From Ruminococcus flavefaciens (lineage in GTDB: Bacteria; Bacillota; Clostridia; Oscillospirales; Ruminococcaceae): a DNA stretch of 60,705 nt. The position numbers and the translations under genes were made by a program. This document shows, piece after piece, positions 1,747 to 39,388 of the stretch. Every line of letters begins with the position of its first letter. Within the stretch, counting starts at the first letter, position 1. The stretch spans positions 1 to 60,705 of the forward strand of contig CACWHY010000014.1 of assembly GCA_902760805.1 (NCBI GenBank). Reading direction: 5' to 3'. The notes under the pieces are model-generated. The model had not been told where the DNA came from, searched no databases, and saw only the letters and a list, made by a program, of their open reading frames with translations.

Positions 1747-2742
1747 TCAGACCAGCCCTGCGTCCTTCATCTGTATCCAGAGAGCGTCGCCGCCGGAGAT
1801 CCCGGCCTTGCCGTCGCAGTCGGCGTTGAACTTGCCCTGCGGGGTAAGGGGATATTTCGCCGGGAGAGCGATATTCTGGAGAACTGCCACTGCATCGTTT
1901 AGGGTGAGGTCGTTATCGTCATTTGCGTCGCCGTTAACATAATCGAATGTATCTATCTGGCCAGCTTCCATACCTGCGGACATTTCAGGAGAGTACGAAT
2001 TAGGATACATACCGAATTCTTCCAGGATGTTGTCAGCAGCCGTCAGCTTGCTGTTTGCGTCATTGGCTTCCGGGTCAGATAAATAGAATACTGTGTCATT
2101 TTGGGGATCAGAGGTGATCTTGTATTCCGGAAAAGCAGTCCTGATCTCATCTGTAATCTTGTCGCGTTCTGCTTCTGAGGAAGCATGATAATAAAACGGA
2201 TAATCGACTACTGTATAGCTGCCGGAGATCTTGTCGAAATACAGCTCGCTGGCAGTTATCAGTCCCTGTTCTCTCAAGTATTCAGAGAGCTCCTTGGCTG
2301 CGCTGGATTCTATCACCTTTGCGGAAAAGCCAAAGCTGAAGCCTCGGTAGGCCTCTCCCTCAGGCATTGTACGGATAAAACTGTATCCGCTGAAGTCCGT
2401 ATCCGATTTCTCGTCAAGAGCAGCCAGGGCGTTTTCCACGTCCTCTGTGGTGATGCCGTCAGGCATTTTTATATTCAGCAGATCATCACATCCGTATGCC
2501 AGCATTATGTTGAGGCTGCCATCATCGGTATTGTTTTCCTGAGTCACAAATGCCCCCATGAAATATGATCCTTCTGCCAGATATCCGGTATGCGAGCAGA
2601 AAATATGGGAGCTGTCAAGTTTGACATAGTTTTTCAGTGCTTCGGAATCCGCCTGCCAAGCAAGTGCATTTGATGTCATGGGGCTTATCATAGCGGCTGC
2701 TGCTACTGCCATTGCAGCCATTGCTTTCAATGTTTTTTTCAT
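1747..2742 (-). CDS. Secreted dockerin protein of ECF trio 1
   Basis: 331 aa. It has a Sec signal peptide (MKKTLKAMAAMAVAAAA, cleavage near the NALA-W region), about 230 residues of unrecognised sequence that may hold two similar alpha/beta modules, and a C-terminal type I-like dockerin (about 268-331). The dockerin has two Ca-binding segments, DANDDNDLTLND and DCDGKAGISGGD. Dockerins attach secreted proteins to scaffoldin cohesins, so the product should sit on the cellulosome or cell surface. It is the last gene of a sigma/anti-sigma operon, 13 nt after the anti-sigma gene; the same arrangement and spacing recur at 29827-32264. The dockerin coding DNA is nearly identical between copies, whereas the N-terminal parts differ strongly. 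No enzyme motif was found. A role as ligand sensor or regulated surface product is inference. Confidence 0.8.
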   Translation of the reverse strand: MKKTLKAMAAMAVAAAAMISPMTSNALAWQADSEALKNYVKLDSSHIFCSHTGYLAEGSYFMGAFVTQENNTDDGSLNIMLAYGCDDLLNIKMPDGITTEDVENALAALDEKSDTDFSGYSFIRTMPEGEAYRGFSFGFSAKVIESSAAKELSEYLREQGLITASELYFDKISGSYTVVDYPFYYHASSEAERDKITDEIRTAFPEYKITSDPQNDTVFYLSDPEANDANSKLTAADNILEEFGMYPNSYSPEMSAGMEAGQIDTFDYVNGDANDDNDLTLNDAVAVLQNIALPAKYPLTPQGKFNADCDGKAGISGGDALWIQMKDAGLV

Positions 2743-2755
2743 AGTGATACCTCCT

Positions 2756-3532
2756 TTAGTTTATTGGGTGAGCAATGAAGTGTTCCTGTCCGTTTTCGGT
2801 CTCAACGACGCACAGTATCTGGAAGGATACCATCTCGCTAAGGGGCTGAGCACTTGCGATACAGCCTTTTACTGACGTAACATTTCCGGAGTCGTCCTCC
2901 GTGAGCATTTCCGTATATTCGATAGGATCTATACTTTGGAAAAACTCCGGATCTGCTGCTTCGCCGGAGACCTCATAGGTTATGCCGTTCAGCTCGAAGG
3001 TGTAGGTCTTTCGTGGGTCGTAGAGGTTTTCGGTTTTGGGTGTGGTGGCCACTGCCGGTGACTCCGTTGTTGCAGGTGGCGCTGCTGTCTGCGTTTGAGT
3101 AACGGCTGCTGTGACCGGAGCAGTAGTCCCCGGATCGGTAACGTAAGGTCGGGTCACGGGAGTGGCAGTAGTCACGGAAGGAATATCCACCGTTTCGGAA
3201 GAAACTGACGGAGTGCTCTCAGTCCTTGCCGGAGCTTGTCTTTCCGTTGAAGGAACTGTTCCTGTGACTGTAGGTGAGGGAACTGCCGTGGTCTGGGGGC
3301 TCTCTGTTGCAGGAGAGGTCTCCGTCACCATGATGCTGCTTGAAGGCTCACGGTCAGGTGGAGTCTGTACAGCGGAATTGCTCCAGATTCCCAAACCGAT
3401 CAGCACCGCCGCACAAAGCCCCGAAACTGAGAAGGCTGCCCTTCTGATAATAGAGGTTCTGCGCCTCTTTTTTTCGATGATACTGTCGCCCAGCTCCATT
3501 AGAGCGAGAGCGCATTTTCTGCGTTTATCCAT
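2756..3532 (-). CDS. Transmembrane anti-sigma-like protein of trio 1
   Basis: 258 aa. A short basic cytoplasmic N-terminus (MDKRRKCALALMELGDSIIE) is followed by one transmembrane helix (about 28-50), a long Thr/Ser/Pro-rich extracellular linker (about 55-165), and a C-terminal domain of about 85 aa starting near YDPRKTYTFELNGITYEV and ending AHPIN. The same C-terminal domain ends the paralogue at 30854-31726. The ATG at 3532 overlaps the sigma gene stop by 8 nt (ATGGATAA), giving translational coupling, the usual arrangement for an ECF sigma factor and its membrane anti-sigma. No classical zinc anti-sigma motif (HxxxCxxC) is present and the cytoplasmic part is very short, so the inhibitory role is inferred from position and topology. 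The linker plus outer domain resembles the general design of RsgI sensors of clostridial cellulosome regulation, though sequence similarity to RsgI is not evident. Confidence 0.65.
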   Translation of the reverse strand: MDKRRKCALALMELGDSIIEKKRRRTSIIRRAAFSVSGLCAAVLIGLGIWSNSAVQTPPDREPSSSIMVTETSPATESPQTTAVPSPTVTGTVPSTERQAPARTESTPSVSSETVDIPSVTTATPVTRPYVTDPGTTAPVTAAVTQTQTAAPPATTESPAVATTPKTENLYDPRKTYTFELNGITYEVSGEAADPEFFQSIDPIEYTEMLTEDDSGNVTSVKGCIASAQPLSEMVSFQILCVVETENGQEHFIAHPIN

Positions 3533-4070
3533 TGGCCTGCCTCCTTTCCATTTCAGCTCTGAGTGCCTTTTTTGCACAGTATATCAGATCTGATGTCTGC
3601 TTCGGTGACTTTTTCATGACCTTTGCAGCTTCCGCTGGGGTCATTTCCTCAAAGAAGACCAGATACAATACCTGGGCGTATTCAGCTTTCAAAGCCTTTA
3701 GTGACTGGTGGATAAGAATTCTCTGCTGATCCTTGATATAGTCTGATTCAAGATCGGTCTCGTCCGGGATATAGCACATATCCTCAATGGAAGAATACCT
3801 GATCTTCCGGAATTTTTTCATGTAATTGACAGCGGTATTCTTGCCGATAGTATAAAGCCAGGTTTTGAAGGAATAGCCGCTTTTGTACTTTGGTCTGTTC
3901 ACATACAGCTTCAGGAAGACCTCATTTGCGGCCTCCTCGGAAATATGTATATCCCTGATGATCGTATTGATGAACAGGGTCAGGCCGTCCTTGTACTCAG
4001 TTACAAGCTCAACAAAGCCCTCATTATCACCATTCAGGAAACGGAGGTAGCTACTTGCACCGTTATCCAT
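3525..4070 (-). CDS. ECF-type RNA polymerase sigma factor, trio 1
   Basis: 181 aa. Region 2 spans about 10-85 (FLNGDNEGFVELV near the start, then FKTWLYTIGKNTAVNYMKK as the -10-binding part). Region 4 spans about 120-175 (LVFFEEMTPAEAAKVM then a helix-turn-helix ending YCAKKALRAEME). Length and two-domain build are typical of ECF sigma-70 factors. The ATG follows AGGAG by 6 nt. It heads a three-gene operon with the anti-sigma-like and dockerin genes. The paralogue at 31713-32264 shares the N-terminus (MDNGASSYxRFLNGDN) and most of region 2. It likely directs transcription of surface or polysaccharide-related genes; the target promoters are unknown. Confidence 0.88.
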   Translation of the reverse strand: MDNGASSYLRFLNGDNEGFVELVTEYKDGLTLFINTIIRDIHISEEAANEVFLKLYVNRPKYKSGYSFKTWLYTIGKNTAVNYMKKFRKIRYSSIEDMCYIPDETDLESDYIKDQQRILIHQSLKALKAEYAQVLYLVFFEEMTPAEAAKVMKKSPKQTSDLIYCAKKALRAEMERRQANG

Positions 4071-4113
4071 TTAATGCTCCTTTGTAAGATAGGTTCTGAA
4101 CTCTTTCTTACTT

Positions 4114-4119
4114 ATTATA
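4114..4119 (-). promoter_or_regulatory. -10 element upstream of ECF gene 1
   Basis: On the minus strand GTTGTATAATAAGT precedes the sigma gene by about 50 nt. The same 14 bases plus AAGAAAGA downstream occur before the paralogous sigma gene (32305-32310). The hexamer 17 bp upstream (TCGAGA) is a poor -35, so activation or an alternative holoenzyme may be needed. Confidence 0.5.
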
Positions 4120-4488
4120 CAACACTCATGGGAAAATCTCGAAGCGATTTCAAATATTTTTTGAATTAACTTTTGCCTATGGCCTGTGATCAGAAAAAGG
4201 GCTTTTTTCTTTTGTTCTCACTATTTCTACCTTAGTACCAGGTAATGTGACGCAAAACGTGTATTTCGTGTGTATTCCTAAAAAACTCCCTGTCAAGCCA
4301 TCTTGAACTGCGTGATAATAGATCCTATATTATCATTTGTTTCAATTACGATTGCCTCAAAAATAGTCAGGAGCACTATAATGTAAAAGTGGAGCTTCTG
4401 AATTGAAAATTGACACTTATCCCATGTCTGAATGAAAATGTGCTCTGTTATTTCCTCCCTGAAATAAGTATGCTCTTGCAACGAAAGG
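4120..4488. other. Intergenic region with no recognised gene
   Basis: AT-rich. A 75-aa minus-strand frame (4293-4520) is best explained as antisense of the tRNA-like end at 4489-4520 plus chance sequence. A weak A/T hairpin lies near 4191-4211. Nothing else was recognised. Confidence 0.5.
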
Positions 4489-9712: not shown

Positions 9713-9742
9713 AAAATATAAATGACTGGAAGGAGGAGCGGT

Positions 9743-10873
9743 ATGGAGGAGATGTATGTTTACAGCGGCACAAAAAAGCTGCGCTGCGGATATACTACGG
9801 GTACCTGTGCTGCTGCGGCTGCAAAGGCTGCTGCTATAGCTCTGCTCACCCATGATCGTGTGAACAGAGTTGAGATCCTTACACCTAAAGGACATATGCT
9901 CCATATCGAGATCGGGCGCTGTATAACTGATAATGAAAGCGTGCTTTGCTCTGTGATAAAGGACAGCGGTGACGACCCTGATGTGACGAACGGTGCAGAG
10001 GTGTGCGCCGAGGTAACGCTTATCAGTGAAGGAATAGAGATAGACGGAGGACAAGGCGTCGGCAGAGTCACCAAGGCCGGCCTTGATCAGCCTGTCGGTG
10101 CTGCTGCGATAAATTCAGTTCCCAGGAAAATGATAACTCAGGCGGTAAAGGATATAGCAGAGCTTTACGAGTATCATGGCGGATTTCGCATAGTCATCTC
10201 AGTTCCTCAGGGGGAGGAGATCGCAAAAAAGACCTTCAATCCCCGTATCGGGATCGTAGGGGGGATCTCTATCATCGGCACGACTGGCATAGTGGAGCCC
10301 ATGAGCAGCTCAGCTCTGATAGAAACGATCCGCACAGAGGCTAATATCCGCAAAGCTGAGGGGCGGGAAGTTCTTGTTCTGACGGTGGGGAATTACAGTG
10401 AGCGATTCATTTCAGAGCATAAGCCTGAACTGAGCGAGCGGTGCGTTATGTGCAGCAATTTCATCGGCGATGCCATAGATATCGGCATATCGCTGGGGTT
10501 TTCTGAGATCCTTATCTACGGCCATATAGGAAAAATGGTGAAGCTGGGCTCTGGGATAATGAATACCCATTCCTCCTTTGCAGACGGAAGAATTGAGACC
10601 CTCATCACCTGCGGAGCCCTTGCCGGTGTGGAAGGCTCTGTTCTTCGCAGTCTTGGCGACTGTGCGACAACTGATGCAGCGCTGGAGATCCTGACTGAAA
10701 ATGGCATTTTGGAGAAGGTGCTCGATGTGCTTACCGGCAGAATACACGGCTATTTACAAGCGAGAGCAAAGGATCAGGCCAGAGTCGGAGCAGTGGTTTT
10801 CTCATATAAAAACGACTTTATCTTGAAAACTGAGTTTGCTGATGAGATACTGAGAAAGGCTTTAGGTGAGTGA
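9743..10873 (+). CDS. cbiD: Cobalt-precorrin-5B C1-methyltransferase
   Basis: About 376 aa. CbiD uses SAM to methylate C1 of the corrin ring in the anaerobic (early cobalt insertion) B12 pathway. The diagnostic N-terminus LRCGYTTGTCAAAAAKAA is present, as are GGDPDVTNG-like (DDPDVTNGAEV) and GTTGIVEPMS motifs. The ATG at 9743 was preferred over the one at 9722 because AAGGAGG sits 6 nt before it. It is the first of 16 tightly packed genes on the plus strand and its stop lies 1 nt before the cbiF start. Confidence 0.96.
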   Translation: MEEMYVYSGTKKLRCGYTTGTCAAAAAKAAAIALLTHDRVNRVEILTPKGHMLHIEIGRCITDNESVLCSVIKDSGDDPDVTNGAEVCAEVTLISEGIEIDGGQGVGRVTKAGLDQPVGAAAINSVPRKMITQAVKDIAELYEYHGGFRIVISVPQGEEIAKKTFNPRIGIVGGISIIGTTGIVEPMSSSALIETIRTEANIRKAEGREVLVLTVGNYSERFISEHKPELSERCVMCSNFIGDAIDIGISLGFSEILIYGHIGKMVKLGSGIMNTHSSFADGRIETLITCGALAGVEGSVLRSLGDCATTDAALEILTENGILEKVLDVLTGRIHGYLQARAKDQARVGAVVFSYKNDFILKTEFADEILRKALGE

Positions 10874-10874
10874 A

Positions 10875-11633
10875 ATGGTACATTTTGTAGGAGCAGGGAG
10901 CGGTGCGGCTGACCTTATCACGCTGAGAGGAAAGGCTCTGCTGGAGACCGCTGATGTGGTAATATACGCCGGATCCCTTGTGAGCCCGGAGCTGCTGGGC
11001 TATACCCGTCCTGACTGTAAGATCTGCAACAGCGCCGAAATGACTCTCGACCAGGTGATCAAGACCATGGAAACGGCTGAAAATAGCGGGCTGACCACGG
11101 TGCGGCTCCATACCGGCGACCCCTGTATCTACGGTGCTGTCCGTGAGCAGATGGACAGGCTGGAGGAGCTGGGCATAACCTATGATGTCTGCCCGGGAGT
11201 AAGCTCCTTCTGCGGAGCTGCGGCTGCCTTGAAAGCTGAGTACACCCTTCCTGAGGTGTCCCAGACGGTCATTTTGACACGAATGGCAGGCCGGACCACT
11301 GTGCCTGAAAGCGAGAGCATAGAAAGCCTGGCCGCCCACAATGCGACCATGGTGATATTCCTCAGCACAGGTATGCTTGAGGAGCTGTCACGCAGGCTGA
11401 TAAAGGGCGGATACAGCGCCGAAACTCCTGCGGCGATCGTATACAAGGCGACCTGGCCGGAGGAGAAGGTCTGCCGGTGTACAGTTGCAACTCTGGCTCA
11501 GACCGCCAAAGAAAACGGGATCACAAAGACTGCACTGATCACCGTCGGGAACTTCCTGGGCGATGTGAAGTCCCTCTCAAAGCTCTATTCTCCGGACTTT
11601 GAGACAGGCTACAGAAAGGCAGTGGAGAAATGA
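10875..11633 (+). CDS. cbiF: Cobalt-precorrin-4 C11-methyltransferase
   Basis: 252 aa, tetrapyrrole methylase fold. It starts MVHFVGAGSGAADLITLRG, the family hallmark, with LHTGDPCIYGAV and CPGVSSFCGAAAAL as SAM/substrate loops. It methylates C11 of cobalt-precorrin-4. A GTG start at 10866 (adding MSE) is possible, but the ATG at 10875 gives the standard N-terminus. Its last codons overlap cbiG by 4 nt (ATGA). Confidence 0.95.
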   Translation: MVHFVGAGSGAADLITLRGKALLETADVVIYAGSLVSPELLGYTRPDCKICNSAEMTLDQVIKTMETAENSGLTTVRLHTGDPCIYGAVREQMDRLEELGITYDVCPGVSSFCGAAAALKAEYTLPEVSQTVILTRMAGRTTVPESESIESLAAHNATMVIFLSTGMLEELSRRLIKGGYSAETPAAIVYKATWPEEKVCRCTVATLAQTAKENGITKTALITVGNFLGDVKSLSKLYSPDFETGYRKAVEK

Positions 11634-12661
11634 AGGCGGCGTTGATCTCACTTACCGAAAAGGGCAGGGCTCTTTCCGCTAAGATCGCAGAAAAAGCGGC
11701 GTTTTTGGAGTGCCGGCGCTTCTGCTTCCACAAGCACTCAGATCCGGCGGCTTCTGATTTTTACAGCATCAGCCAGCTTACAGCGGAGATCTTTTCCGGG
11801 TACGAGGCGCTGATCTTCGTCTGCGCCTGCGGGATAGCTGTGCGGTCTGTGGCTCCCCACGTCAGGTCAAAGACCACCGACCCGGCTGTTGTGGTGATCG
11901 ACGACTGCGGAAAGTTCGTGATCCCCGTTCTTTCGGGGCATTTGGGCGGAGCAAATGAGCTCTCACGGCGGCTTGCGGAGCTTATCGGCGCTCAGCCTGT
12001 GATCACGACTGCCACGGACACTGGCAGCCATTTTTCGCCGGACAGCTTTGCCTCAGCAAACGGCCTGATCATCACGGATATGTCTGCGGCAAAGGCCGCA
12101 GCTTCGGCGATCCTCGACGGCGAGAGGATCGGCCTTGTCAGTGAGTATGACTGCATAAATGTGCCGGAGGAGGTCTCTCCGGGAGCAGATCATCCCGTGG
12201 GGATCTTCGTGGGGAGTGCCCATCGGGAGCCTTTTCCCGTGACGCTCAGGCTTGTGCCGAGGAACGTTGTTCTGGGGATAGGCTGCAAGCGAGGAACAGA
12301 CTGCGAAACCATAGAGCGCACGGTGCTTGCAGCTCTGAAAAGTGCCGGCATCGAAATGGAGCGTGTCTGCGGTGCCGCAACGATCGACCTGAAAAAAGAC
12401 GAAGAGGGGCTGCTGGGATTTTGCAAAAACCACGGGCTGGAGCTCAACACTTTTTCCGCAGAGGAGCTCATGAGCACAGGAGGAGATTTCAGCTCATCGG
12501 AATTTGTCAAAAGTGTCACCGGAGCCGATAATGTTTGCGAAAGAAGTGCCGTACTGCTCAGCGGAGGAAGGCTAATCATGGCTAAGACCGCCGCAAATGG
12601 CGTGACTGCTGCGGCTGCGGAAAAACCGCTGATACTTGACTTTGAGAGGAGGATCCTGTGA
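11630..12661 (+). CDS. cbiG: Cobalt-precorrin-5A hydrolase
   Basis: 343 aa. CbiG opens the delta-lactone of cobalt-precorrin-5A and releases acetaldehyde, a step unique to the anaerobic route. The N-terminal domain has LIFVCACGIAVRSVAPHV and PVLSGHLGGANELSRRLA. The C-terminal domain begins at about 210 with VLGIGCKRGTDCETIE and has STGGDFSSSEFVK. Full length relative to the family. The stop TGA shares one base with the ATG of the next gene. Confidence 0.95.
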   Translation: MKAALISLTEKGRALSAKIAEKAAFLECRRFCFHKHSDPAASDFYSISQLTAEIFSGYEALIFVCACGIAVRSVAPHVRSKTTDPAVVVIDDCGKFVIPVLSGHLGGANELSRRLAELIGAQPVITTATDTGSHFSPDSFASANGLIITDMSAAKAAASAILDGERIGLVSEYDCINVPEEVSPGADHPVGIFVGSAHREPFPVTLRLVPRNVVLGIGCKRGTDCETIERTVLAALKSAGIEMERVCGAATIDLKKDEEGLLGFCKNHGLELNTFSAEELMSTGGDFSSSEFVKSVTGADNVCERSAVLLSGGRLIMAKTAANGVTAAAAEKPLILDFERRIL

Positions 12662-13383
12662 TGCTTTACGTTGTTGGCACAGGAGCAGGAGACCGTGAGG
12701 GCATGACCATTGCCGCTGAGCAGGCGATACTGCGCAGTGAGCTGATAGTTGGCTACACAAAATATACTGAGCTTTTGAGGGAGATCTTCCCCGAAAAGCA
12801 ATATGCCTCCACGGGAATGAAGCAGGAGCGTGAGCGTGTGGAGCTGGCATTGAAGGAGGCAGTCCACAAGGATGTTTCCCTTATTTGCAGCGGCGACCCT
12901 CAGCTCTACGGCATGGCAGGGCTGGCCTATGAGCTAAGCCCCGGCTATCCCGGCGTGGAGATCCAGGTGGTGCCGGGAGTTACGGCTGCATTCAGCGGAG
13001 GAGCTGTGCTTGGCTCTCCACTTACCCATGACTTCGCAGTTATAAGCCTTTCTGACCTGCTGACTCCGGCGGAAAAGATCCGCAGGCGCCTTGAATGTGC
13101 GGCAGACTGCGATATGGTGATAGTTCTGTACAACCCCTCCTCAAAGACCCGTGCAGACTACCTGAAAAAAGCCTGTGATATTGTGCTGAGGTACCGCTCG
13201 GGCGAGACTGTCTGCGGCTATGTGCGAAACATCGGCCGTGAGGGACAGGAGAGCCGTATCCTCACCCTTGCTGAGCTGAGGGAGACTGCCGTGGATATGT
13301 TCACCACAGTCTACATCGGCAGCTCGGAAACTAAGGTGATCGGCGGAAAAATGGTAACTCCCAGAGGCTATCGGAATGTTTAG
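12661..13383 (+). CDS. cbiH: Cobalt-factor III (precorrin-3B) C17-methyltransferase
   Basis: 240 aa, tetrapyrrole methylase. MLYVVGTGAGDREGMTIAA opens the protein; LICSGDPQLYGMAGL and VPGVTAAFSGGAVLGSPLTHDF are the signature loops. It methylates C17 and drives ring contraction in the anaerobic pathway. The ATG at 12661 is used, overlapping the cbiG stop (TGATG). It ends 8 nt inside the next gene. Confidence 0.93.
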   Translation: MLYVVGTGAGDREGMTIAAEQAILRSELIVGYTKYTELLREIFPEKQYASTGMKQERERVELALKEAVHKDVSLICSGDPQLYGMAGLAYELSPGYPGVEIQVVPGVTAAFSGGAVLGSPLTHDFAVISLSDLLTPAEKIRRRLECAADCDMVIVLYNPSSKTRADYLKKACDIVLRYRSGETVCGYVRNIGREGQESRILTLAELRETAVDMFTTVYIGSSETKVIGGKMVTPRGYRNV

Positions 13384-14116
13384 GCTGCTCATTTTCGGAG
13401 GAACTACCGAAGGCCGGAAACTGGCGGAATACTGCGCTGAGAGAGCCATAAGTGCGGCTGTTTCGGTTGCCACCCGGCAGGGAGCTGCCCTGCTGCCTGA
13501 GGGAGTGAGGATCCTCTGCGGAAGGCTGGATGAGGAGCAGATGAAGGAGCTTATCCGCAGCGGTTATTCTGCGGTGATCGATGCAACTCACCCCTATGCT
13601 GTGGAGGCAACTGCCAACATACGCCGTGCCTGCGAGGAGACCGGAGCCAGATACCTTCGCCTTATCCGTGAGAGCTCCGCCTCATGGGGGAAAACTGTTC
13701 CGGATATGGATAGTCTCATTGAGCTGCTCAACGGTACAGATGAGGCCATTCTCAGCACTCTCGGCAGCAAGGCTCTGCCTGAGCTGACCAGGGTGAAGGA
13801 CTTCCGCAGACGCCTTTGGGTCAGAGTTTTGCCCACGGATGAGATCCTGGACAGGTGTCAGGCTCTGGGCTATGACCGGGAAAAGGTGATCCGGCAGAAG
13901 GGCCCCTTCACAGCTGAGCAGAATGCAGCGCACCTTCGGAAAAGCGGCGCTGGGATCCTTCTCACAAAGGAAAGCGGCGCCGCAGGAGGCTATCCGGAAA
14001 AGGCTGAGGCTGCACGGATATGCGGTGCAGAGCTCATAACTCTCGCTCGTCCGCAGGAAAGGGGCTACAGCTTCGGCCAAATGATCCAGATCATTGAAAA
14101 GGAAATGGAAAGATGA
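13376..14116 (+). CDS. cbiJ: Cobalt-precorrin-6A reductase
   Basis: 246 aa. The NAD(P)H-binding N-terminus MFRLLIFGGTTEGRKLAEY and the conserved VIDATHPYAVEATANI are typical of the CbiJ/CobK family, which reduces the macrocycle of precorrin-6A. IRQKGPFTAEQNAAHLRK and LLTKESGAAGG near 170-205 complete the family pattern. It overlaps cbiH by 8 nt and cbiET by 4 nt. Confidence 0.93.
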   Translation: MFRLLIFGGTTEGRKLAEYCAERAISAAVSVATRQGAALLPEGVRILCGRLDEEQMKELIRSGYSAVIDATHPYAVEATANIRRACEETGARYLRLIRESSASWGKTVPDMDSLIELLNGTDEAILSTLGSKALPELTRVKDFRRRLWVRVLPTDEILDRCQALGYDREKVIRQKGPFTAEQNAAHLRKSGAGILLTKESGAAGGYPEKAEAARICGAELITLARPQERGYSFGQMIQIIEKEMER

Positions 14117-15303
14117 AAGTATACATTGTGGGAACAGGTGCAGAGGGCGAAAATTCCCTGACAAAAGAGGCCAAAACAGCCATAGACAGCGCAGGTCTGC
14201 TTATAGGCGCTGAGCGTATGCTGAAGCCCTATGTCGGCTCCGGCAAGGAGGCCTTTGCGGGATACAGACCCGAGATGATCGCCGAAAAGCTGAGCTCATG
14301 CGAGCATTCTTCGGCGGCAGTTCTTATGTCGGGAGACTGCGGCTTTTTCAGCGGAGCCAAGAAGCTCCTTCCGCTGCTTGCAGATCATGAGGTGCGCATT
14401 ATCCCGGGAATATCGTCGGCGGCGATGTTTTGCAGCCGGCTGGGTATCTCCTACGAGGACATGAAGTTCGTCACCCTTCACGGAAGAAGCTCCAATATCG
14501 CCGTGAATGTCAGGCTGAACGAGCGCTGCTTTTTTCTGCTTGGAGGAGAAATGACCGCCGCCCGGGTCTGCCGGGTGCTGTGCTCATATGGACTGTCTGA
14601 CGTGACGGTACACATCGGCACAGATTTGGGCTACGAAAGCGAGTCGATCACAAGCGGAAAGGCTGAGGAGCTGGTCGAGACTGATCCGTCTGGACTGACT
14701 GTTATGATCGTGGAAAACAGCCGTGCGCTGGGTCATATCCCCTCTGGGATAGACGATGAGGAGTTCCGCCGAAGCACCGTTCCCATGACGAAGTCCGAGG
14801 TGCGGTGCGTGGCAGTTGCAAAGCTGGGGATCTGCCGAAATTCCGTTGTTTGGGACATCGGCTGCGGTACAGGCTCTGTGTCCGTGGAGGCCGCTTACCG
14901 CTGTCCTGACGGGACTGTCTGCGCCTTTGACAAGGACCCGGAAGCGGCAGAGCTTACCTCAGAAAATGCCCGGCTCCACGGCTGTGACAACATTCAGGTC
15001 ACAGCAGGCAGCTGCCCTGAGGCTCTGGCAGGAGCGGCGGCTCCGGACAAGGTGTTCATCGGCGGCAGCTCCGGGGATATGGGCGGTATTTTTGAGGCTG
15101 TTCATGGGAAGGCCCCGGCGGCGGACATCGCAGTTACGGCGGTCTCTCTGGAGACATTGCGGCAGACTGTGAGCTGCTTTGAGAGATACGGAGCCGCTCC
15201 GCAGATAGTGCAGATCTCAGTAACACGCACGAAAAGAGTTGGCTCCCACACCATGCTCCAAGGGCAAAATCCGGTTTTCGTCATTTGGGGGAGGCTCTCA
15301 TGA
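14113..15303 (+). CDS. cbiET: Fused cobalt-precorrin-7 C5-methyltransferase / C15-methyltransferase-decarboxylase
   Basis: 396 aa, a CobL-type fusion. Residues 1-200 are the CbiE tetrapyrrole methylase (MKVYIVGTGAEGENSLT; VLMSGDCGFFSGAKKL; IPGISSAAMFCSRLG). Residues about 215-396 are the CbiT SAM methyltransferase with the motif I VVWDIGCGTGSVSVEAA and acidic loop CAFDKDPEA. Together they methylate C5 and C15 and decarboxylate the C12 acetate. In many bacteria these are two genes. It overlaps cbiA by 4 nt. Confidence 0.95.
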   Translation: MKVYIVGTGAEGENSLTKEAKTAIDSAGLLIGAERMLKPYVGSGKEAFAGYRPEMIAEKLSSCEHSSAAVLMSGDCGFFSGAKKLLPLLADHEVRIIPGISSAAMFCSRLGISYEDMKFVTLHGRSSNIAVNVRLNERCFFLLGGEMTAARVCRVLCSYGLSDVTVHIGTDLGYESESITSGKAEELVETDPSGLTVMIVENSRALGHIPSGIDDEEFRRSTVPMTKSEVRCVAVAKLGICRNSVVWDIGCGTGSVSVEAAYRCPDGTVCAFDKDPEAAELTSENARLHGCDNIQVTAGSCPEALAGAAAPDKVFIGGSSGDMGGIFEAVHGKAPAADIAVTAVSLETLRQTVSCFERYGAAPQIVQISVTRTKRVGSHTMLQGQNPVFVIWGRLS

Positions 15304-16628
15304 GGCGTTTCATCATCGGCGGCACCAAAAGCGGCTGCGGAAAGACCACTGTGACCTGCGCTGTGCTGGCGGCTCTCAAACGGCGAAATATAGCGGTCTC
15401 TGCCGTAAAGTGCGGCCCGGATTATATCGATCCCATGTTCCACAGGAGGGCGATCGGCGTTGATTCACACAATCTGGACAGCTTTTTCTGCGAAAGAGAC
15501 ACAGTGCTTGGTCTCCTTGAGGAGTACGGGAGAAATGCCTATGTTTCGGTCATCGAGGGGGTCATGGGTTACTACGACGGTGAGGCCGGCAGCGCTTATT
15601 CTCTCTCTGAAATGACGGAAACTCCGGCGGTGATCGTCATTGACTGCAAGGGCATGAGCAACTCCATTGGCGCAGTGATGAGCGGCTTTCTCCGCTATCG
15701 CCCAAATCGGATCGCCGGCTTTATTTTTGACCAACTTCCGGAGAAGCTGATCCCTCTGGCGAAGAAGCTCTGTCAGGAGCTGGAAACCAAGTATTTCGGC
15801 TGTCTTCCAAAGACGGATCTCACCTTGGAGAGCCGGCATCTGGGGCTGGTCACCGCCGACGAGATCGCTGACATCCATGCAAAGCTGCGGAAGCTGGGGG
15901 AGCTGGCCGAGGAGCACATCTGCATAGACGAGCTGCTTGATCTGGGCGAAAAGCCTCTTCCCGAGCACAGAGCTCCCGAAATACCGCTGTTTCAGAATGC
16001 TCCGACTATTGCCGCTGCGAAGGACAGAGCCTTCTGCTTTATCTATCAGGAAAACATAGAGCTGCTCGAAAAAATGGGGTGCAGGATAGAGTATTTCTCG
16101 CCCCTTTATGACAGCTCAGTTCCGAAAGCAGACGGGCTGATCCTCTGCGGAGGCTACCCCGAGCTTTACGCAGAGCAGCTTTCACAAAACAAGTCCATGC
16201 TTGCGGACGTGAAGCGCCTGATCTCCGGCGGTATGCCCACGATTGCGGAGTGCGGCGGATTTATGTACCTGCACCATGAGCTCACCGACAAGAACGGCCG
16301 GACATTCCCCATGGCAGGCGTTATAAACGGGCGAGCCTTTCCAACTGAGAGGCTGCAAAGATTTGGCTATATCACGCTGAAAGGATCCTCTGACAGCCTG
16401 CTGCTGAGAGCTGGCGGCTCCCTCAGAGCCCATGAGTTCCACTATTGGGAGAGCACCTGCTGCGGCGAGGCTCTGACAGCAGAAAAGTCCGACGGCAGAA
16501 GCTGGGAGTGCTGCCACACAAGCGAGAGCCTGTACGCTGGCTTTCCCCATATCTACTTCTATTCCGATGTGGGATCAGCGGCCGGGTTTGTGAGAAAATG
16601 TATTAGCTACGGAGAAAACAATGGATAG
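15300..16628 (+). CDS. cbiA: Cobyrinate a,c-diamide synthase
   Basis: 442 aa. CbiA uses ATP and glutamine to amidate the a and c side chains of cobyrinic acid. The N-terminal ATPase has a P-loop-like IIGGTKSGCGKTTVTCAV and KCGPDYIDPMFH. The C-terminal GATase1-like domain has the catalytic Cys in TIAECGGFMYLHHEL and a His in RAHEFHYWEST. The ATG at 15300 (ATGA overlap with cbiET) follows GGGAGG; an upstream in-frame ATG is less likely. Confidence 0.95.
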   Translation: MRRFIIGGTKSGCGKTTVTCAVLAALKRRNIAVSAVKCGPDYIDPMFHRRAIGVDSHNLDSFFCERDTVLGLLEEYGRNAYVSVIEGVMGYYDGEAGSAYSLSEMTETPAVIVIDCKGMSNSIGAVMSGFLRYRPNRIAGFIFDQLPEKLIPLAKKLCQELETKYFGCLPKTDLTLESRHLGLVTADEIADIHAKLRKLGELAEEHICIDELLDLGEKPLPEHRAPEIPLFQNAPTIAAAKDRAFCFIYQENIELLEKMGCRIEYFSPLYDSSVPKADGLILCGGYPELYAEQLSQNKSMLADVKRLISGGMPTIAECGGFMYLHHELTDKNGRTFPMAGVINGRAFPTERLQRFGYITLKGSSDSLLLRAGGSLRAHEFHYWESTCCGEALTAEKSDGRSWECCHTSESLYAGFPHIYFYSDVGSAAGFVRKCISYGENNG

Positions 16629-17670
16629 GATAAGAAGGATCACACCTGCCGATAAAGCTGCGTATATTGCGGCAAAGGAGCGCTGGGACAGCATAGCGAA
16701 GCCCCTGGGCAGCTTTGGGCTGCTGGAAGAGATGATACAGAAGATCGCTGCCATTCAGGGCAGTCCCCATGTGGACATCTCTTCACGGACAGCCGTGGTG
16801 ATGTGCGCAGATCATGGGGTGGTCTGCGAGGGGGTAACTCAGTGCGGACAGGAGGTCACGGCAGAGTGCGCAAAAGCCATTGCAGATGGACGGTCAAATG
16901 TCAACGCAGTGGCTTCGGCCTTCGGTGCTGACGTGATCGCAGTTGATGTGGGCATTGCGGCGGAGGTCAGCTGCGACAAGCTGATCGGGCGCAAGGTGGT
17001 CAGCGGCACAAGAAATATGGCCGCCGAAAGCGCCATGACTCCGGCAGAAACTGAGCAGGCTATACAAGTGGGGATGAACACTGCTCAGGAGCTGGCTAGA
17101 AGAGGCACAAAGCTCATCATTTCAGGAGAAATGGGCATCGGCAACACCACCTCGGCTTCGGCCATAGCCTCAGTTTTGCTGGGACTGCCCCCGGAGAAGG
17201 TCACCGGCAGAGGTGCAGGGCTTTCCACAGAGGGGCTGCAAAAAAAGATCGCTGCGATCCGCAGGGCGATACAAGTGAACTGTCCTTCAGCCGATGAGCC
17301 TCTGGAGCTGCTGCAAAAGCTGGGCGGAGCCGAGATCGCCGCTATGACGGGGCTTTTCCTGGGAGGAGCCTGCTGCAAGATCCCCGTGATCATCGACGGA
17401 GTGATCTCCTCAGCGGCCGCAGCCATCGCATATTCGATCCAGCCCTTGTGCAGGGAGTATATGCTGGCCAGTCACAGCTCAGGGGAGCCTGCCGGAGAAG
17501 GTCTACTTGCATACTGCGGCCTGAAGGCTCCCATAAATGCAGGCCTTCGTCTTGGAGAGGGCACAGGCGGACTTCTGCTGGTGCCGCTTCTGGACGGAGC
17601 TCTTGCCCTCTACAACAACTCCCACAGATTTGACGAAACAGGGATAGAAAGGTATGTTGAACAGAAATGA
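16621..17670 (+). CDS. cobT: Nicotinate-nucleotide:dimethylbenzimidazole phosphoribosyltransferase
   Basis: 349 aa, full length. CobT activates the lower-ligand base (DMB or another benzimidazole/phenolic base) as alpha-ribazole phosphate. Conserved segments include KPLGSFGLLEEMIQKIAAIQ, VVMCADHGVVCEGV, GEMGIGNTTSASAIAS and the C-terminal LGEGTGGLLLVPLLDGA carrying the catalytic Glu. It overlaps cbiA by 8 nt and cobU by 4 nt. Confidence 0.96.
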   Translation: MDRIRRITPADKAAYIAAKERWDSIAKPLGSFGLLEEMIQKIAAIQGSPHVDISSRTAVVMCADHGVVCEGVTQCGQEVTAECAKAIADGRSNVNAVASAFGADVIAVDVGIAAEVSCDKLIGRKVVSGTRNMAAESAMTPAETEQAIQVGMNTAQELARRGTKLIISGEMGIGNTTSASAIASVLLGLPPEKVTGRGAGLSTEGLQKKIAAIRRAIQVNCPSADEPLELLQKLGGAEIAAMTGLFLGGACCKIPVIIDGVISSAAAAIAYSIQPLCREYMLASHSSGEPAGEGLLAYCGLKAPINAGLRLGEGTGGLLLVPLLDGALALYNNSHRFDETGIERYVEQK

Positions 17671-18188
17671 TCACCCTTGTTACAGGCGGCTCAAAGTGCG
17701 GAAAATCCAGCTTTGCCGAGAGGATCCTTGACGGCTTTCACGGAAGGAAAATCTACATCGCCACCATGGAGCCCTTCGGTGCGGACGCATTTGAGGCCAT
17801 AGACCGCCACCGGAAAATGCGCCGGGGGAAGGGCTTTGAAACGGTGGAAAGATACACAGATCTTCATGAGCTCTCCCTTCCGGCAGGGTCTGGGGTCTTG
17901 CTGGAATGTGTGGGGAATCTCTGCGCAAACGAGATGTTCCGGGAGGGGGAGATCCTTTGCCCCACGGACAAGGTGCTCAAAGGCGTAAGGGCGGTCGCAG
18001 AGCAGGTCTCAGAGCTGGTGATCGTCACAAACCAGGTGGGCAGCGACGGTATCACTTACTCTGAGGGAACATCGCTGTATATACGCTTTCTCGGCCAGAT
18101 CAACCGCTCTATGGCAGAGCTGGCAGACAACGTGATCGAGTGCGTTTACGGTATACCGATCGTGCTGAAAGGAGAACTGCCATGCTGA
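17667..18188 (+). CDS. cobU: Adenosylcobinamide kinase / guanylyltransferase
   Basis: 173 aa. The P-loop TLVTGGSKCGKSSFAERI begins the protein. The guanylylated His region is RHRKMRRGKGFETVER, and LVIVTNQVGSDGITYSEGTS is the usual late motif, with N in place of the commoner E of TNEVG. CobU phosphorylates and GMP-activates adenosylcobinamide before ring assembly. It overlaps cobS by 7 nt. A shorter relative follows at 18943-19326. Confidence 0.92.
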   Translation: MITLVTGGSKCGKSSFAERILDGFHGRKIYIATMEPFGADAFEAIDRHRKMRRGKGFETVERYTDLHELSLPAGSGVLLECVGNLCANEMFREGEILCPTDKVLKGVRAVAEQVSELVIVTNQVGSDGITYSEGTSLYIRFLGQINRSMAELADNVIECVYGIPIVLKGELPC

Positions 18189-18949
18189 GATCTTTGCTGT
18201 CGGCCTTCCTCATGTACTCACGTATACCAGTTCCAATGGTGGAGTGGAAGGAGGAAAACCGCCGCTATTCACTGGGCTTTTTCCCTCTTATCGGAGCAGT
18301 CATCGGCGGACTGCTGCTGGGTTGGAGGTATGCCTGTGATGCCCTTGAGATAGGCCAGTTTCTTTTTGCGTCAGGTGCAGTCCTCATCCCTGTCCTCGTG
18401 ACGGGAGGGATCCATTTGGACGGATTTTGCGACGTTTGCGACGCAAGAGCCTCCTACGCTGACCGGGAGAAGCGCCTTGAGATCATGTCGGATCCCCACA
18501 TCGGATCCTTTGCCGTTATGAAGCTGAGCCTGTATCTTTTGGCTCAGGCCGGGCTGTTTTCTCAGGTGAAGACTTTGAGGACAGCAGCTGTGATCGCCTG
18601 CGGATATGTTCTGTCAAGGGCGCTCAGCGGCCTGTCTGCGGTCATGTTCAGGTCGGCCAAAAGCGGCGGAGCTCTCCAGAGCTTTGTTCGTCCGGCACAT
18701 AAAAGGATCACAGCGGCCATGGTGCTGCTTTTCGGCATAGTCAGCGCAATTGGGGCAGTTTTGATCTGGCCTGTCTGCGGAGTTCCTGCTGTGGCTGCGG
18801 CGGCTGCGGTGCTGATCTGGCACAGATACTCCTCATACCGGGACTTTGGCGGAGTTACAGGAGATCTGTGCGGCTGGTTTTTGCAAATGTGCGAGATCAT
18901 GATGCTGGCGGCAGTTATTTTTTCGGAAAGGATAATAAGGCTATGGTAA
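18182..18949 (+). CDS. cobS: Adenosylcobinamide-GDP ribazoletransferase
   Basis: 255 aa integral membrane protein with about six hydrophobic segments. It joins GDP-cobinamide and alpha-ribazole(-phosphate). The family motif GGIHLDGFCDVCDARAS (metal-binding Asp residues) and EIMSDPHIGSFAVM are present. The ATG at 18182 was chosen over an upstream in-frame start because it gives the standard MLRSLLSAFLMYSRIPVP N-terminus. It overlaps the next gene by 7 nt. Confidence 0.94.
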   Translation: MLRSLLSAFLMYSRIPVPMVEWKEENRRYSLGFFPLIGAVIGGLLLGWRYACDALEIGQFLFASGAVLIPVLVTGGIHLDGFCDVCDARASYADREKRLEIMSDPHIGSFAVMKLSLYLLAQAGLFSQVKTLRTAAVIACGYVLSRALSGLSAVMFRSAKSGGALQSFVRPAHKRITAAMVLLFGIVSAIGAVLIWPVCGVPAVAAAAAVLIWHRYSSYRDFGGVTGDLCGWFLQMCEIMMLAAVIFSERIIRLW

Positions 18950-19326
18950 TGATAACAGGAGGGGCTTATCAGGGGAAAACTGCCTGTGCTGTGGGAAATT
19001 TCGGCATTTCTCAGGACGAGATCATCAGCGGCAGGAGCTGCACGCCCCATGAGGCCATGTCCGCAAAATGTATCACCGATCTTCAGGAGCTCCTCCGCAG
19101 GCTGGGCGATGGCTCAGTGGCCTTTACCCAGGAGCTCTGCCGCCGAAACAGCTCCGCAGTCATCATTATGGAGGAGATCGGCTGCGGCATCGTCCCCATG
19201 GAAAAGAGCGAGAGAGTTTGGCGTGAGAACGTGGGGCGCTGCGGCTGTATCATCGCAGCTAGCTCCGAAACAGTGGTAAGAATGGTCTGCGGGATCCCCA
19301 CTGCGATAAAGGGAGAAATGCCATGA
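18943..19326 (+). CDS. Short CobU-like P-loop protein
   Basis: 127 aa, about 50 residues shorter than CobU. It keeps the P-loop MITGGAYQGKTACAV and the C-terminal block EEIGCGIVPMEKSERVWREN, which matches the NEVG-GIVP-R pattern of CobU better than the full-length cobU upstream does, and it ends IPTAIKGEMP. The central part with the guanylylated-His helix is shortened and no RHRxxR motif is visible. It lies between cobS and cobC with 7- and 4-nt overlaps. It may be a specialised kinase-only or regulatory partner of CobU; function is inferred. Confidence 0.75.
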   Translation: MVMITGGAYQGKTACAVGNFGISQDEIISGRSCTPHEAMSAKCITDLQELLRRLGDGSVAFTQELCRRNSSAVIIMEEIGCGIVPMEKSERVWRENVGRCGCIIAASSETVVRMVCGIPTAIKGEMP

Positions 19327-29826: not shown

Positions 29827-30840
29827 TCAGATCAGCCCTGCGTCCTTCATCTGTATCCAGAGGGCATCTCCGCCGGAGATCCCGGCCTTTCCGTCACAGT
29901 CGGCGTTGAATTTGCCCTGTGCGGTAAGGGGGTATTTCTTGGGAAGAGCGATATTCTGGAGGACAGCCACGGCATCGTTGAGGGTGAGGTCGTTATCGTC
30001 ATTTGCATCGCCGTTAACATAATCGAAGCCTTCAATCTGTGCCTCATAGGACTCCAGAGCTTCCGGAGAGATCAGATCCGCATATCTATCCTCAGCGAAG
30101 ATCGTGCTCCTCATTTCATCGTAGAGCTGCCATTTCTCGGCAACAGAAAGCTCCTCCTCTGTGACTATGCGGAAACGGTCCTCCAGCTCGATCTGATACT
30201 GGTCGATGCCGTTTTCAGCGTATGTCCAAGCGTAGCCTTTTTCAACGTGGTAAGGGATGCCTTTTTCCGTGAAAAATCCCTCAACTATATCTCTTTTGTC
30301 GTTGTAGAAGCTAAGTGTTTTCATATCGATACCATGAGGATACCAGTGCGATAGAGAGCATCTGTTGATCCTGATGCTTGCATAGGTAACAAGCTCCTTC
30401 TCCTTCAACGCAGAAGTAATGGCCTTTGCGTCAGAGATCGACAGACCCTTTGCCGGGAACTGAATGTAGCAGTTCTCGCAGTCAGAGACCCCCGTTATGT
30501 CAGCTACACGCTCGCAAGAGATCCCCAGCTCCTCAAGAACAGCGGAAATATCTTCGTTTGAGGCGCTGTCGCTGCGCATGAGCCAGATAATATCAGGAGT
30601 ATACTCCTTTACGAGAATGTCCTTTTCTCCCATGAAGACATCATAGTGCTGAGACCACTGGTCGTTATAGCCGAAAAGCGGCTCCAGGAAGCTGAGATCC
30701 TCACGCTCCACCGGGGTATAGCCCTCGGTGATAGACGGGTCATCGGAGTCTGCTTCGATGCAGACAGCCTGTGCCGGTACAGCTGCTGCTGAGACAGCCA
30801 TAACTGCGGCTGATATAAGTGATGTAAATAGTTTTTTCAT
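29827..30840 (-). CDS. Secreted dockerin protein of ECF trio 2
   Basis: 337 aa. Signal peptide (MKKLFTSLISAAVMAVSAAAVPAQA), about 245 residues of unrecognised sequence, and a C-terminal dockerin (about 275-337) that differs from the copy at 1747-2742 by only a few residues. The middle part differs strongly from that copy, although both appear to contain two alpha/beta modules; here ISCERVADITGVSDCENCYI and LEDRFRIVTEEELSV are visible. 13 nt separate it from the anti-sigma gene, exactly as in copy 1, with the same GGAGGTATCACTATG start context. No catalytic motif was found. It is probably the exported partner or output of the sigma system. Confidence 0.8.
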   Translation of the reverse strand: MKKLFTSLISAAVMAVSAAAVPAQAVCIEADSDDPSITEGYTPVEREDLSFLEPLFGYNDQWSQHYDVFMGEKDILVKEYTPDIIWLMRSDSASNEDISAVLEELGISCERVADITGVSDCENCYIQFPAKGLSISDAKAITSALKEKELVTYASIRINRCSLSHWYPHGIDMKTLSFYNDKRDIVEGFFTEKGIPYHVEKGYAWTYAENGIDQYQIELEDRFRIVTEEELSVAEKWQLYDEMRSTIFAEDRYADLISPEALESYEAQIEGFDYVNGDANDDNDLTLNDAVAVLQNIALPKKYPLTAQGKFNADCDGKAGISGGDALWIQMKDAGLI

Positions 30841-30853
30841 AGTGATACCTCCT

Positions 30854-31726
30854 TTAGTTTATGGGACGAGCAATGAAATTTGCCTGTCCGGCGGCAGTTT
30901 CAACGGTGCAGATGATCTTGTCCTGGGTCGTTGAGATCATTGCACTAATTGTTATGGTATGGCCCTGAGAATTGGTGGTGTAAAGATCGGCATATCCCAC
31001 AGCCTTCATGGACTGTATATCCTCATAGGACGCAGCCTCGTCTGACACCTCATAGCTAACATCGTCAAGGTAGAATATGTAGGTCTTTTCCGGGTTGTAG
31101 AAGAAATACCCTACCTGCGCAATGGTAGTTGCAGACACCGGCATAGTTTCCGGAACTTGGGCGGTAGTCTGCGGCAGTGTAGGCGGCACTGGAGACTCAA
31201 CCGATCCCGTGGGCTCCTCAGGCAAAGTGGTTTTCGGCGGAGCGGTCTGTGAAGCTGCCGCTGCCGTGCTTGAAGCCCTCTCAGTGGCGGCAGCAGTCTG
31301 CACAGTGCTCACCGCAGCAGTCCGAGCGGCGGTCTCCGTCCTCATGGGAGCAGTCCCTACAGCCGCCGTCCTCTCTGTGGTGGGAGCAGTTCCGGTGACC
31401 GGCTGAGCGGAGGTCTGTGGAGCAGTACCACTGACAGCCTGAGCCGTGGCAGTAGGTGAGGGAACTGCCGTGGTCTGTGAGATCTCCGCTGCCGGAGGAG
31501 CGTCCGTGGGAGCAGTGGTCTCCACGATCATCAGCTCCGTGCGTGGAGGCTTTGCGGCCTCACGGAGATCCCTGCCGGACATGAGCCACACACCGGCGAT
31601 CGCCGCAGCACAGGCTCCTGAGGAGACAGCGCTGCGCCTTATGATAGTATTCCTGCGCTTTTTTTCGGCTATTCTTTTTTCGCCAAGCCGCATTATCTCC
31701 GCAGCTCTTCTTTCAAATCTGTCCAC
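30854..31726 (-). CDS. Transmembrane anti-sigma-like protein of trio 2
   Basis: 290 aa from a GTG at 31726, preceded by GAGGAGGGG. Cytoplasmic N-terminus MDRFERRAAEIMRLGEKRI, one transmembrane helix (about 28-47), an extracellular Thr/Ala/Pro-rich linker of about 140 residues, and a C-terminal domain (about 205-290) with FYNPEKTYIFYLDDVSYEV and ending ARPIN. It resembles trio 1 at both ends while the linker is freely diverged. The gene overlaps the sigma stop by 14 nt. The predicted job is to hold the ECF factor inactive until the outer domain receives a signal. Confidence 0.65.
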   Translation of the reverse strand: MDRFERRAAEIMRLGEKRIAEKKRRNTIIRRSAVSSGACAAAIAGVWLMSGRDLREAAKPPRTELMIVETTAPTDAPPAAEISQTTAVPSPTATAQAVSGTAPQTSAQPVTGTAPTTERTAAVGTAPMRTETAARTAAVSTVQTAAATERASSTAAAASQTAPPKTTLPEEPTGSVESPVPPTLPQTTAQVPETMPVSATTIAQVGYFFYNPEKTYIFYLDDVSYEVSDEAASYEDIQSMKAVGYADLYTTNSQGHTITISAMISTTQDKIICTVETAAGQANFIARPIN

Positions 31727-32264
31727 TTATACCCCTCCTCGCCATTTCCTCTCTCAAAGCGATCTTCGCCCTGTAGAGCAGCTGTGTCACCTGCCGGGAG
31801 GTCTTCCCCATGACCCTTGCTGCCTCCTGATTGGTGAGCCCCTCAAAATAAATGAGGAACAGCACCTGAGCATGATCTGCGTAAAGCGCTTTGATACACT
31901 GGTGGATCGCCTTGTTGCGTTCGTCTGATATGTACTCAGACTCGATGTCAGTTTCGTCCGAAAAATAGCTGATATCCTCCAGAGGAGCATACTGCCTGCG
32001 CCGAATTTTTTTCAGATAATTGAGAGCAGTGTTCCTGCCGATGGCATAAAGCCAGGTCTTGAATGAACAGCCCTCTCTGAATTTCGGCTTGTCCGCATAG
32101 AGCCGGATAAAAACATCGTCGGCGGCTTCTTCTGCAATGTGCATATCATTTATTATCGTATTGATGAAAAGAGTCAGTCCGTCGCTGAACTCTCTGACCA
32201 GCTGAACAAAAGCGTCATTGTCACCATTCAGGAAACGGCGGTAGCTACTTGCACCGTTATCCAT
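31713..32264 (-). CDS. ECF-type RNA polymerase sigma factor, trio 2
   Basis: 183 aa. Region 2 includes RFLNGDNDAFVQLVREF and FKTWLYAIGRNTALNYLKK; region 4 includes LIYFEGLTNQEAARVM and the helix-turn-helix ending YRAKIALREEMARR. The N-terminal ten residues and the region 2 core are nearly identical to the factor at 3525-4070, while region 4 diverges more, hinting at different -35 preferences. AAAGGAG precedes the ATG by 7 nt. First gene of a three-gene operon. Confidence 0.88.
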   Translation of the reverse strand: MDNGASSYRRFLNGDNDAFVQLVREFSDGLTLFINTIINDMHIAEEAADDVFIRLYADKPKFREGCSFKTWLYAIGRNTALNYLKKIRRRQYAPLEDISYFSDETDIESEYISDERNKAIHQCIKALYADHAQVLFLIYFEGLTNQEAARVMGKTSRQVTQLLYRAKIALREEMARRGISGQI

Positions 32265-32304
32265 AGTTAACTCCTTTGTGAAGATCTGAATTCTTTCTTC
32301 ACTT

Positions 32305-32310
32305 ATTATA
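32305..32310 (-). promoter_or_regulatory. -10 element upstream of ECF gene 2
   Basis: The sequence GTTGTATAATAAGT is identical to that before ECF gene 1, at nearly the same distance from the start. The hexamer 17 bp upstream (AGATGA) is not a sigma-A -35. Confidence 0.5.
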
Positions 32311-32441
32311 CAACTTTTGGCAGGCCATCATCTCACCTCCGGGATATATTTTTATCATTTAACCATGGAAAATGATCCTGAACTGCAAATTGACGGCATG
32401 ATCCCGGGCAGAGAATAACCTATAAAAAAAATAAGTAAAAT

Positions 32442-38774: not shown

Positions 38775-38784
38775 GGTGGACGGT

Positions 38785-39384: not shown

Positions 39385-39388
39385 CGCC

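Follow-up and report, generated by a model that had tools for sequence, protein, structure and literature searches.

Dockerins recurrently linked to predicted ECF sigma/anti-sigma operons in cellulosome-encoding Ruminococcus

Introduction

Two described systems come close to the genes considered here: the SigI/RsgI pairs of Clostridium (Acetivibrio) thermocellum and the SigW/RsiW-type pairs of extracytoplasmic function (ECF) sigma factors with their anti-sigma factors. SigI and ECF factors are contrasted in the cited part of one study (PMC6056542). According to the relevant passages of a 2024 genome survey (PMC11557425), a dedicated suite of RsgI receptors is used by Acetivibrio-type cellulosome producers only; because of that limit, the regulation of Ruminococcus cellulosomes would be left open. 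For Ruminococcus itself, excerpts report that R. flavefaciens FD-1 has 118 proteins in which a dockerin accompanies domains of unknown function (Rincon 2010; PMC2930009) and place group ECF262, found in R. albus, with the non-canonical ECF factors (PMC8999054). Here we analyze a 60,705-nt stretch of R. flavefaciens DNA (contig CACWHY010000014.1 of assembly GCA_902760805.1; the window) in which two loci, called trios, each encode a predicted ECF sigma factor, a predicted membrane anti-sigma factor (the sensor) and a secreted dockerin protein.

Judged from sequence, the linkage of dockerins to this sigma/sensor pair is recurrent and seldom found behind other genes. It takes two forms, a third gene or an extension of the sensor open reading frame (ORF), and both are predicted to yield a membrane sensor and a secreted dockerin protein. 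We propose that the trios are ECF sigma/anti-sigma operons whose sensor is tied to the cellulosome via the dockerin, with assembly state feeding into transcription, and we give this proposal an even chance of being right. A literature search, which left most subscription papers outside its reach, found no earlier description of these trios.

Results

The first trio and its gene products

The first trio lies at 1747-4070 on the minus strand.

3525..4070 (-): ECF sigma factor (sigma 1), 181 aa, MDNGASSY type
2756..3532 (-): single-pass membrane protein P0002, predicted anti-sigma factor, 258 aa
2759..3034 (-): outer domain of the sensor, 92 aa modelled with AF2
2750..2755 (-): AGGAGG of the dockerin gene, directly 3' of the anti-sigma stop codon
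1747..2742 (-): secreted dockerin protein P0003, 331 aa
1750..1941 (-): dockerin module, residues ~268-331 of P0003

The preliminary description of this DNA had seen an ECF sigma factor, a single-pass protein with a Thr/Pro linker and outer domain, and a dockerin protein here, and the three genes are real. It had also called them translationally linked. This stands for the first two genes, where the start ATG of P0002 sits inside the sigma 1 gene (8-nt overlap). At the second junction, TAA AGGAGGTATCACT ATG, the dockerin ATG lies 13 nt past the sensor stop; the P0002 and P0003 genes are closely coupled, without overlap.

Sigma 1 matches Sigma70_r2 above the Pfam cut-off (E 1e-9) and Sigma70 r4_2 just below it (24.1 of 25.7 bits, E 3e-5), and region 3 has no Pfam match at E 1. 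It thus has the Sigma70 regions 2 and 4 without region 3 that characterize ECF factors. The NCBIfam model TIGR02937 (sigma70-ECF) matches above its cut-off, and the closest solved structure is SigW (5wuq), aligned over residues 12-174. Identity with SigI was considered and rejected, given that region 4 is recognized by both r4_2 and the SigW alignment; no dedicated SigI-C model was run.

P0002 consists of a basic N-terminus of ~30 aa, one hydrophobic segment (residues ~27-49, window ~3386-3454), a Thr/Pro-rich linker and an outer domain of ~90 residues. No Pfam or NCBIfam family comes close to its cut-off on this protein (best E 0.38 and 0.014, respectively). Among 67 sensors compared with Pfam, only two matched, weakly and to one domain-of-unknown-function family each; NCBIfam gave three families with at most two members each, which appear compositional. 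The sensor family is therefore without a Pfam or NCBIfam model, which bears out the earlier view of the middle protein as lacking a recognized anti-sigma motif and possibly representing a new family. RsgI was rejected as an identity: PF12791 (RsgI_N) is absent from the Pfam matches of P0002 at E 1 and from those of the 67 relatives at E 0.01. The N-terminal make-up of 165 relatives conserves the basic segment before one hydrophobic stretch, and at 134 of 175 loci the sensor and sigma genes share 14 nt. The first two genes are most simply read as a predicted ECF sigma/membrane anti-sigma pair.

P0003 begins with a signal-peptide-like N-terminus and matches the solved ‘Group I Dockerin’ 5m2o_B (E 6e-8), while a Pfam scan of it returned nothing, Dockerin_1 included. 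Its dockerin is homologous to ~50 other places in its own genome (53 matches, itself included).

A second trio and further copies in the same genome

A paralogous trio with the same gene order, on which the preliminary description is silent, lies at 29827-32264 on the minus strand.

31713..32264 (-): ECF sigma factor, 183 aa, 60% identical to sigma 1
30854..31726 (-): predicted anti-sigma factor, 290 aa, GTG start, 14-nt overlap with the sigma gene
29827..30840 (-): secreted dockerin protein P0006, 337 aa

The two sensors are ~41% identical. P0006 and P0003 share 83% identity over 86 residues of the dockerin region, and BLASTP finds no significant match between them beyond it. Like P0003, P0006 matches the group I dockerin 5m2o_B (E 1e-7) and is not matched by Pfam Dockerin_1. 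Two more sigma genes of this type occur elsewhere in the genome. One (L050) is followed by a sensor with no dockerin gene behind it. The other (L049) is followed by a single 540-aa ORF that combines the sensor N-terminus, a Pro-rich linker, an internal signal peptide and a dockerin. A single accidental gene neighborhood is ruled out by the second trio together with the multi-genome survey below. The same genome has a further ECF gene with a Thr/Pro-linker membrane protein (L051:3999-5707, +), with no dockerin gene seen alongside.

Dockerins as third genes

We read 198 loci with 210 sigma ORFs, which reduce to 179 distinct sigma loci. Removing 21 in which the sigma or sensor gene is cut, near an end or without an overlapping partner leaves 158 scorable loci; six of the 21 have a dockerin on a cut sensor ORF. 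Taxa outside the genus are represented among the 179 loci, and many of the loci come from metagenome-assembled genomes (MAGs). Genus regions were hand-picked from the top sigma matches, mostly in better assembled genomes, and outside-genus regions came from the top of the order search; because regions were taken from top matches, sigma factors close to the query are over-represented. The profile used to count dockerins was built and iterated from these same loci.

The third gene encodes a dockerin at 48 of the 158 scorable loci, and at another 26 the sensor ORF itself bears dockerin-type repeats (including L177 and L058, where the repeats are weak and a third dockerin gene is also present). 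Conservation of gene order had been set beforehand as the test that could refute the trio, and the order does recur in other genomes. Within the genus, 81 sigma loci from 80 regions include 47 with either arrangement, spread over 23 of 28 genomes. Our first count demanded a ribosome site of dockerin-free third genes only. A recount under one rule for all finds dockerins in 48 of 72 third genes, or in 42 of 60 if a ribosome site is demanded of both classes. Among complete third genes within 50 nt, 39 of 44 encode a dockerin. As a matched control, the same rule applied behind other genes (>=200 aa) of these loci gave 15 of 293, and 9 of 189 for close ones (39/44 versus 9/189, p 4e-30). This control supersedes an earlier one (48/66 versus 92/835 other ORFs).

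Pfam checks covered 67 sensors, 42 of the 48 third proteins and 20 of the 26 fused ORFs. Dockerin_1 was found in 35 of the 42 third proteins, a figure that checks the detector and not the rate, because the 42 were chosen as dockerin-bearing. The third proteins' own domains vary widely. Serpin was found in two of the 42, and no carbohydrate-active enzyme family was found in any of the 42 at E 0.01. One of the two, encoded behind a sigma/anti-sigma pair at L122:7521-10388 (+), joins serpin and dockerin domains.

A relative of the P0003 domain (47%) also occurs in a 677-aa ORF at L269:4914-6947 (-), with a tail-like N-terminus, LRR_5 repeats and, by eye, a dockerin for which Pfam gave no match. 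Read by eye, this ORF adjoins tail-like phage ORFs and could be either a dockerin-bearing prophage protein or a chimeric MAG sequence.

Dockerins on the sensor ORF

Dockerins are borne by 32 sensor ORFs (26 complete, 6 cut by an end). An internal in-frame start of the form M[KRNQ][KR], followed by a signal-peptide-like stretch, is present in 28 of the 32; the same filter passes 3 of 139 sensor ORFs (>=200 aa) without a dockerin. A Shine-Dalgarno site precedes 21 of the 28 internal starts, compared to 5 of 479 other internal Met codons. The consensus at these starts is GAAAGGAGnnTTnAnATG, read in frame mostly as Glu-Arg-Ser. Because no stop lies between the sensor start and the internal start, a full-length protein and a free secreted dockerin protein are both expected, and the fused gene is probably one ORF with two products. 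In the 20 fused ORFs scanned, Pfam gave Dockerin_1 in 16 and no carbohydrate-active enzyme family, and the fused ORFs of the putative FD-1 genome and of the window genome match the solved group I dockerin.

Placed on a quick sigma tree without bootstrap, the internal-start class (28 rows) requires 9 label changes, at least 8 of them forced by starred branches. Of 31 close separate trios, 10 have the sensor stop directly against the Shine-Dalgarno site, and the two window trios are among these 10; if a stop with the right spacing were lost, the fused form could therefore arise.

Two relatives deserve separate mention. At L171:1010-1411 (+), a relative of the fused class has a frameshift in an A-run between its sensor and dockerin parts. 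We dropped it as proof that an internal start can function by itself, because the frameshift, if not real, may be a sequencing error. The sensor ORF of L211, with no dockerin detected, has an internal signal-peptide-like start near residue 175 and is possibly of the fused type with a diverged dockerin.

Outer domains

Outer domains were compared by BLASTP (E <1e-3) with dockerin and N-terminal parts masked. The sensor outer domain is homologous to part of the trio's own dockerin protein in 8 of 51 trios, compared to 34 of 2550 mismatched pairs; with iterated profiles the counts are 8 of 49 and 51 of 2352. The highest identity is 73% over 162 residues, at the putative FD-1 locus L091. The preliminary description had suggested that a cellulosome-attached protein may report to, or be assembled with, the sensor. 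A tie of this kind gains weight from the sensor-borne dockerins and the shared outer domains; the reporting itself belongs to the proposal weighed below.

Both window trios fall outside the eight. Iterated profiles over the collected sensors failed to place the window outer domain in a larger family and returned only the two window copies; among these sensors, the sole homologue of the trio 1 outer domain is that of trio 2 (41%). Its AF2 model is all-beta (predicted local distance difference test score, pLDDT, 79 from 2 sequences). The P0003 model shows a tandem beta-alpha-beta-beta-alpha arrangement and is poor (pLDDT 51, 3 sequences). Neither model has a fold match in the PDB at E 0.001.

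Candidate promoters

ECF sigma factors often drive their own operon, and a CGTC -10 element is typical of ECF promoters. Upstream of the sigma genes, the dyad TGAGA-N17-CGTC occurs in 22 of 147 non-redundant regions and the overlapping dyad GAGAG-N19-CTAA in 23; in eight shuffles, the most frequent dyad reached 7-8. This shared dyad suggests autoregulation by the ECF factor for part of the family. Elements found by a template scan vary around GTGAGAG and CGTCTAATAA, with trio 2 as a variant (TGTATAATAA). The window candidates are as follows.

4112..4121 (-): candidate -10 TGTATAATAA upstream of sigma 1, read from sequence and template scan
32304..32335 (-): candidate promoter of trio 2, TGAGA - spacer - TGTATAATA, template scan

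Spread and copy number

A sigma profile built from the window genome's four sigma factors (threshold E 1e-25) detects members of the family in 78 of 100 sampled genomes of the genus; the highest copy number, 21, belongs to the putative FD-1 genome. An order-wide sample of 295 genomes gives matches in 68, two of them from the genus, with 1 to 4 copies apiece. Dockerins match in all 100 genus genomes and cohesins in 99, with five cohesin matches in the window genome. At E 0.001, RsgI_N matches once each in 19 of the 100 (5 above cut-off); the window genome has no match at this threshold. Sigma copy number correlates with the number of first-look dockerin candidates, which serves as a rough proxy (rho 0.76); correcting for genome size lowers rho to 0.46. 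A sigma match with an in-frame TAG occurs in the putative FD-1 genome at L145:1501-2034.

Outside the genus, each of 22 sigma genes (20 loci, other genera of the order) is followed by a predicted sensor-like ORF, with an N-terminus that is mostly similar by eye. None of the 22 has a dockerin on the sensor or the following gene, and those 20 loci contain no dockerin ORF. Because of this count, the pair looks older, and the dockerin may be a later addition in the cellulosome-encoding genus.

Neighboring genes in the window

Between the two trios, a long gene run at 9722-23976 resembles a cobalamin biosynthesis cluster by eye. A large surface protein resembling a Cna/SpaA-type adhesin, followed by signal-peptidase-like genes (also by eye), occupies 33498-40500.

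Discussion

The gene order and overlaps, the family with its expansion, and the recurrent dockerin linkage are read from the sequence. So are the internal starts with their Shine-Dalgarno sites, the outer-domain homology in some trios and the promoter-like dyad at a subset of loci. Beyond these, we infer operon transcription, sigma binding, autoregulation, cohesin binding, signaling by the dockerin protein and the signal itself.

The proposed mechanism runs as follows. The trios would be ECF sigma/membrane anti-sigma operons, part of a large family that has multiplied in cellulosome-encoding Ruminococcus. In each, the sensor's short basic N-terminus would keep the sigma factor at the membrane, until an external event passed via the outer domain and linker releases it to transcribe its own operon and further targets. 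A secreted dockerin protein would come from the same operon, or from a sensor ORF whose internal start gives a free form, and would plug into scaffoldin cohesins. The docked form could then be the sensor's extracellular partner (ligand, competitor or co-receptor), and cellulosome assembly or occupancy would thereby influence transcription. We see about even odds for a sensing role of the dockerin protein, such as signaling whether cohesins are free or filled. A more specific version, which we hold tentatively and below an even chance, is that Ruminococcus makes the sensor outer part in two forms, one in the membrane anti-sigma factor and one secreted and docked, encoded either by adjacent genes or by a single ORF with an in-frame internal start. 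The docked form would compete with the membrane form or present the signal to it, and cohesin occupancy or substrate contact would set the expression of enzyme genes.

Several observations weigh against this proposal. The sigma/sensor pair can exist without a dockerin, because 18 of the 158 scorable loci have a dockerin-free third gene and 66 have neither a counted third gene nor a sensor dockerin (6 of them with a third gene behind a weak ribosome site). Counting its own genome, only 3 of the 125 genus genomes contain the non-dockerin part of P0003 at E 0.01, and this poor conservation counts against a strict trio rule. Sigma copy number also follows genome size (rho 0.68). Within the window trios, the sensor domain has no homology to the trio's own dockerin protein by BLASTP or iterated profiles, and because the domains lack detectable homology and the models differ, the idea of two homologous forms fails to cover them. 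The template scan, itself run without a shuffled control, finds candidates at only 43 of 171 loci, 36 of them with 17-nt spacing. Trio 1 has a -10 candidate with no matching -35 found, and the window TGTATAATAA, which also resembles a housekeeping -10, may be used by the housekeeping sigma factor. A whole-genome search with the trio 2-like promoter gave 2 hits, one being trio 2 itself, compared to 3 in a reversed-pattern control; with hits no more numerous than in the control, defining a regulon by promoter pattern in the window genome was rejected.

The main rival accepts the sigma/anti-sigma pair and takes the dockerin protein as a co-expressed output, a structural or protective cellulosome component that sends nothing back to the sensor. 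This is a serious possibility, if short of an even chance. The general tendency of ECF factors to drive their own operon would make such an output natural, serpins are plausible outputs (the two third proteins with Serpin, L122 among them), the third proteins' own domains are diverse, and the gene is absent at the 66 loci just mentioned. Taken alone, however, this explanation leaves the dockerins on sensor ORFs, with their 9 inferred label changes, and the homologous outer domains of 8 of 51 trios unexplained.

At the fused loci, the internal signal peptide could instead be a relic of an ordinary fusion, with only the full-length membrane protein mattering. The 4 of 32 dockerin-bearing sensor ORFs without such a start and the 7 of 28 internal starts without a Shine-Dalgarno match fit this explanation. 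We consider it unlikely, since Shine-Dalgarno site and signal peptide are kept together in 21 of 28 cases across diverged loci, compared to 5 of 479 at other internal Met codons, and only 3 of 139 dockerin-free sensor ORFs have such starts. It is quite improbable that the middle protein is an unrelated surface protein traveling with the sigma gene: it matches no anti-sigma model and has no convincing PDB relative, but the frequent 14-nt overlap, the conservation of a basic segment ahead of a single hydrophobic stretch, and the occurrence of the same pair elsewhere in the order, in other genera and families, are what an ECF/anti-sigma pair predicts.

If the proposed link between dockerin and sensor holds, the bacterium may couple gene expression to the state of its cellulose-degrading complex. 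The family adds an expanded set of candidate regulators in cellulosome-encoding Ruminococcus, linked by its genes to the cellulosome itself. It provides a setting for some of the many dockerin proteins without known function, and it makes a simple prediction, namely a secreted form from the internal start.

The family resembles SigI/RsgI of C. thermocellum in having many paralogous pairs of a sigma factor and a predicted membrane anti-sigma factor, each predicted as one operon, in a cellulosome producer, and in a sensor with an outer sensing part, one transmembrane segment and an inner part. It differs in that the sigma factor here is an ECF factor with region 4, whereas SigI has a SigI-C domain instead, according to the cited part of PMC6056542. 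It also differs in its co-encoded or fused dockerin, which the passages of literature at hand do not mention for RsgI. With the SigW/RsiW type it shares an ECF sigma factor with an adjoining gene for a single-pass, predicted anti-sigma factor, as well as a candidate CGTC -10 at many loci; unlike that type, it matches no known anti-sigma model, and the outer part of its sensor joins a Thr/Pro linker to domains that vary or bear a dockerin. With the non-catalytic dockerin proteins of FD-1, as described in excerpts of PMC2930009, the third proteins share a dockerin joined to domains of unknown function. The word ‘sigma’ does not occur in that paper, whereas the loci described here place some such proteins beside a predicted sigma/anti-sigma pair.

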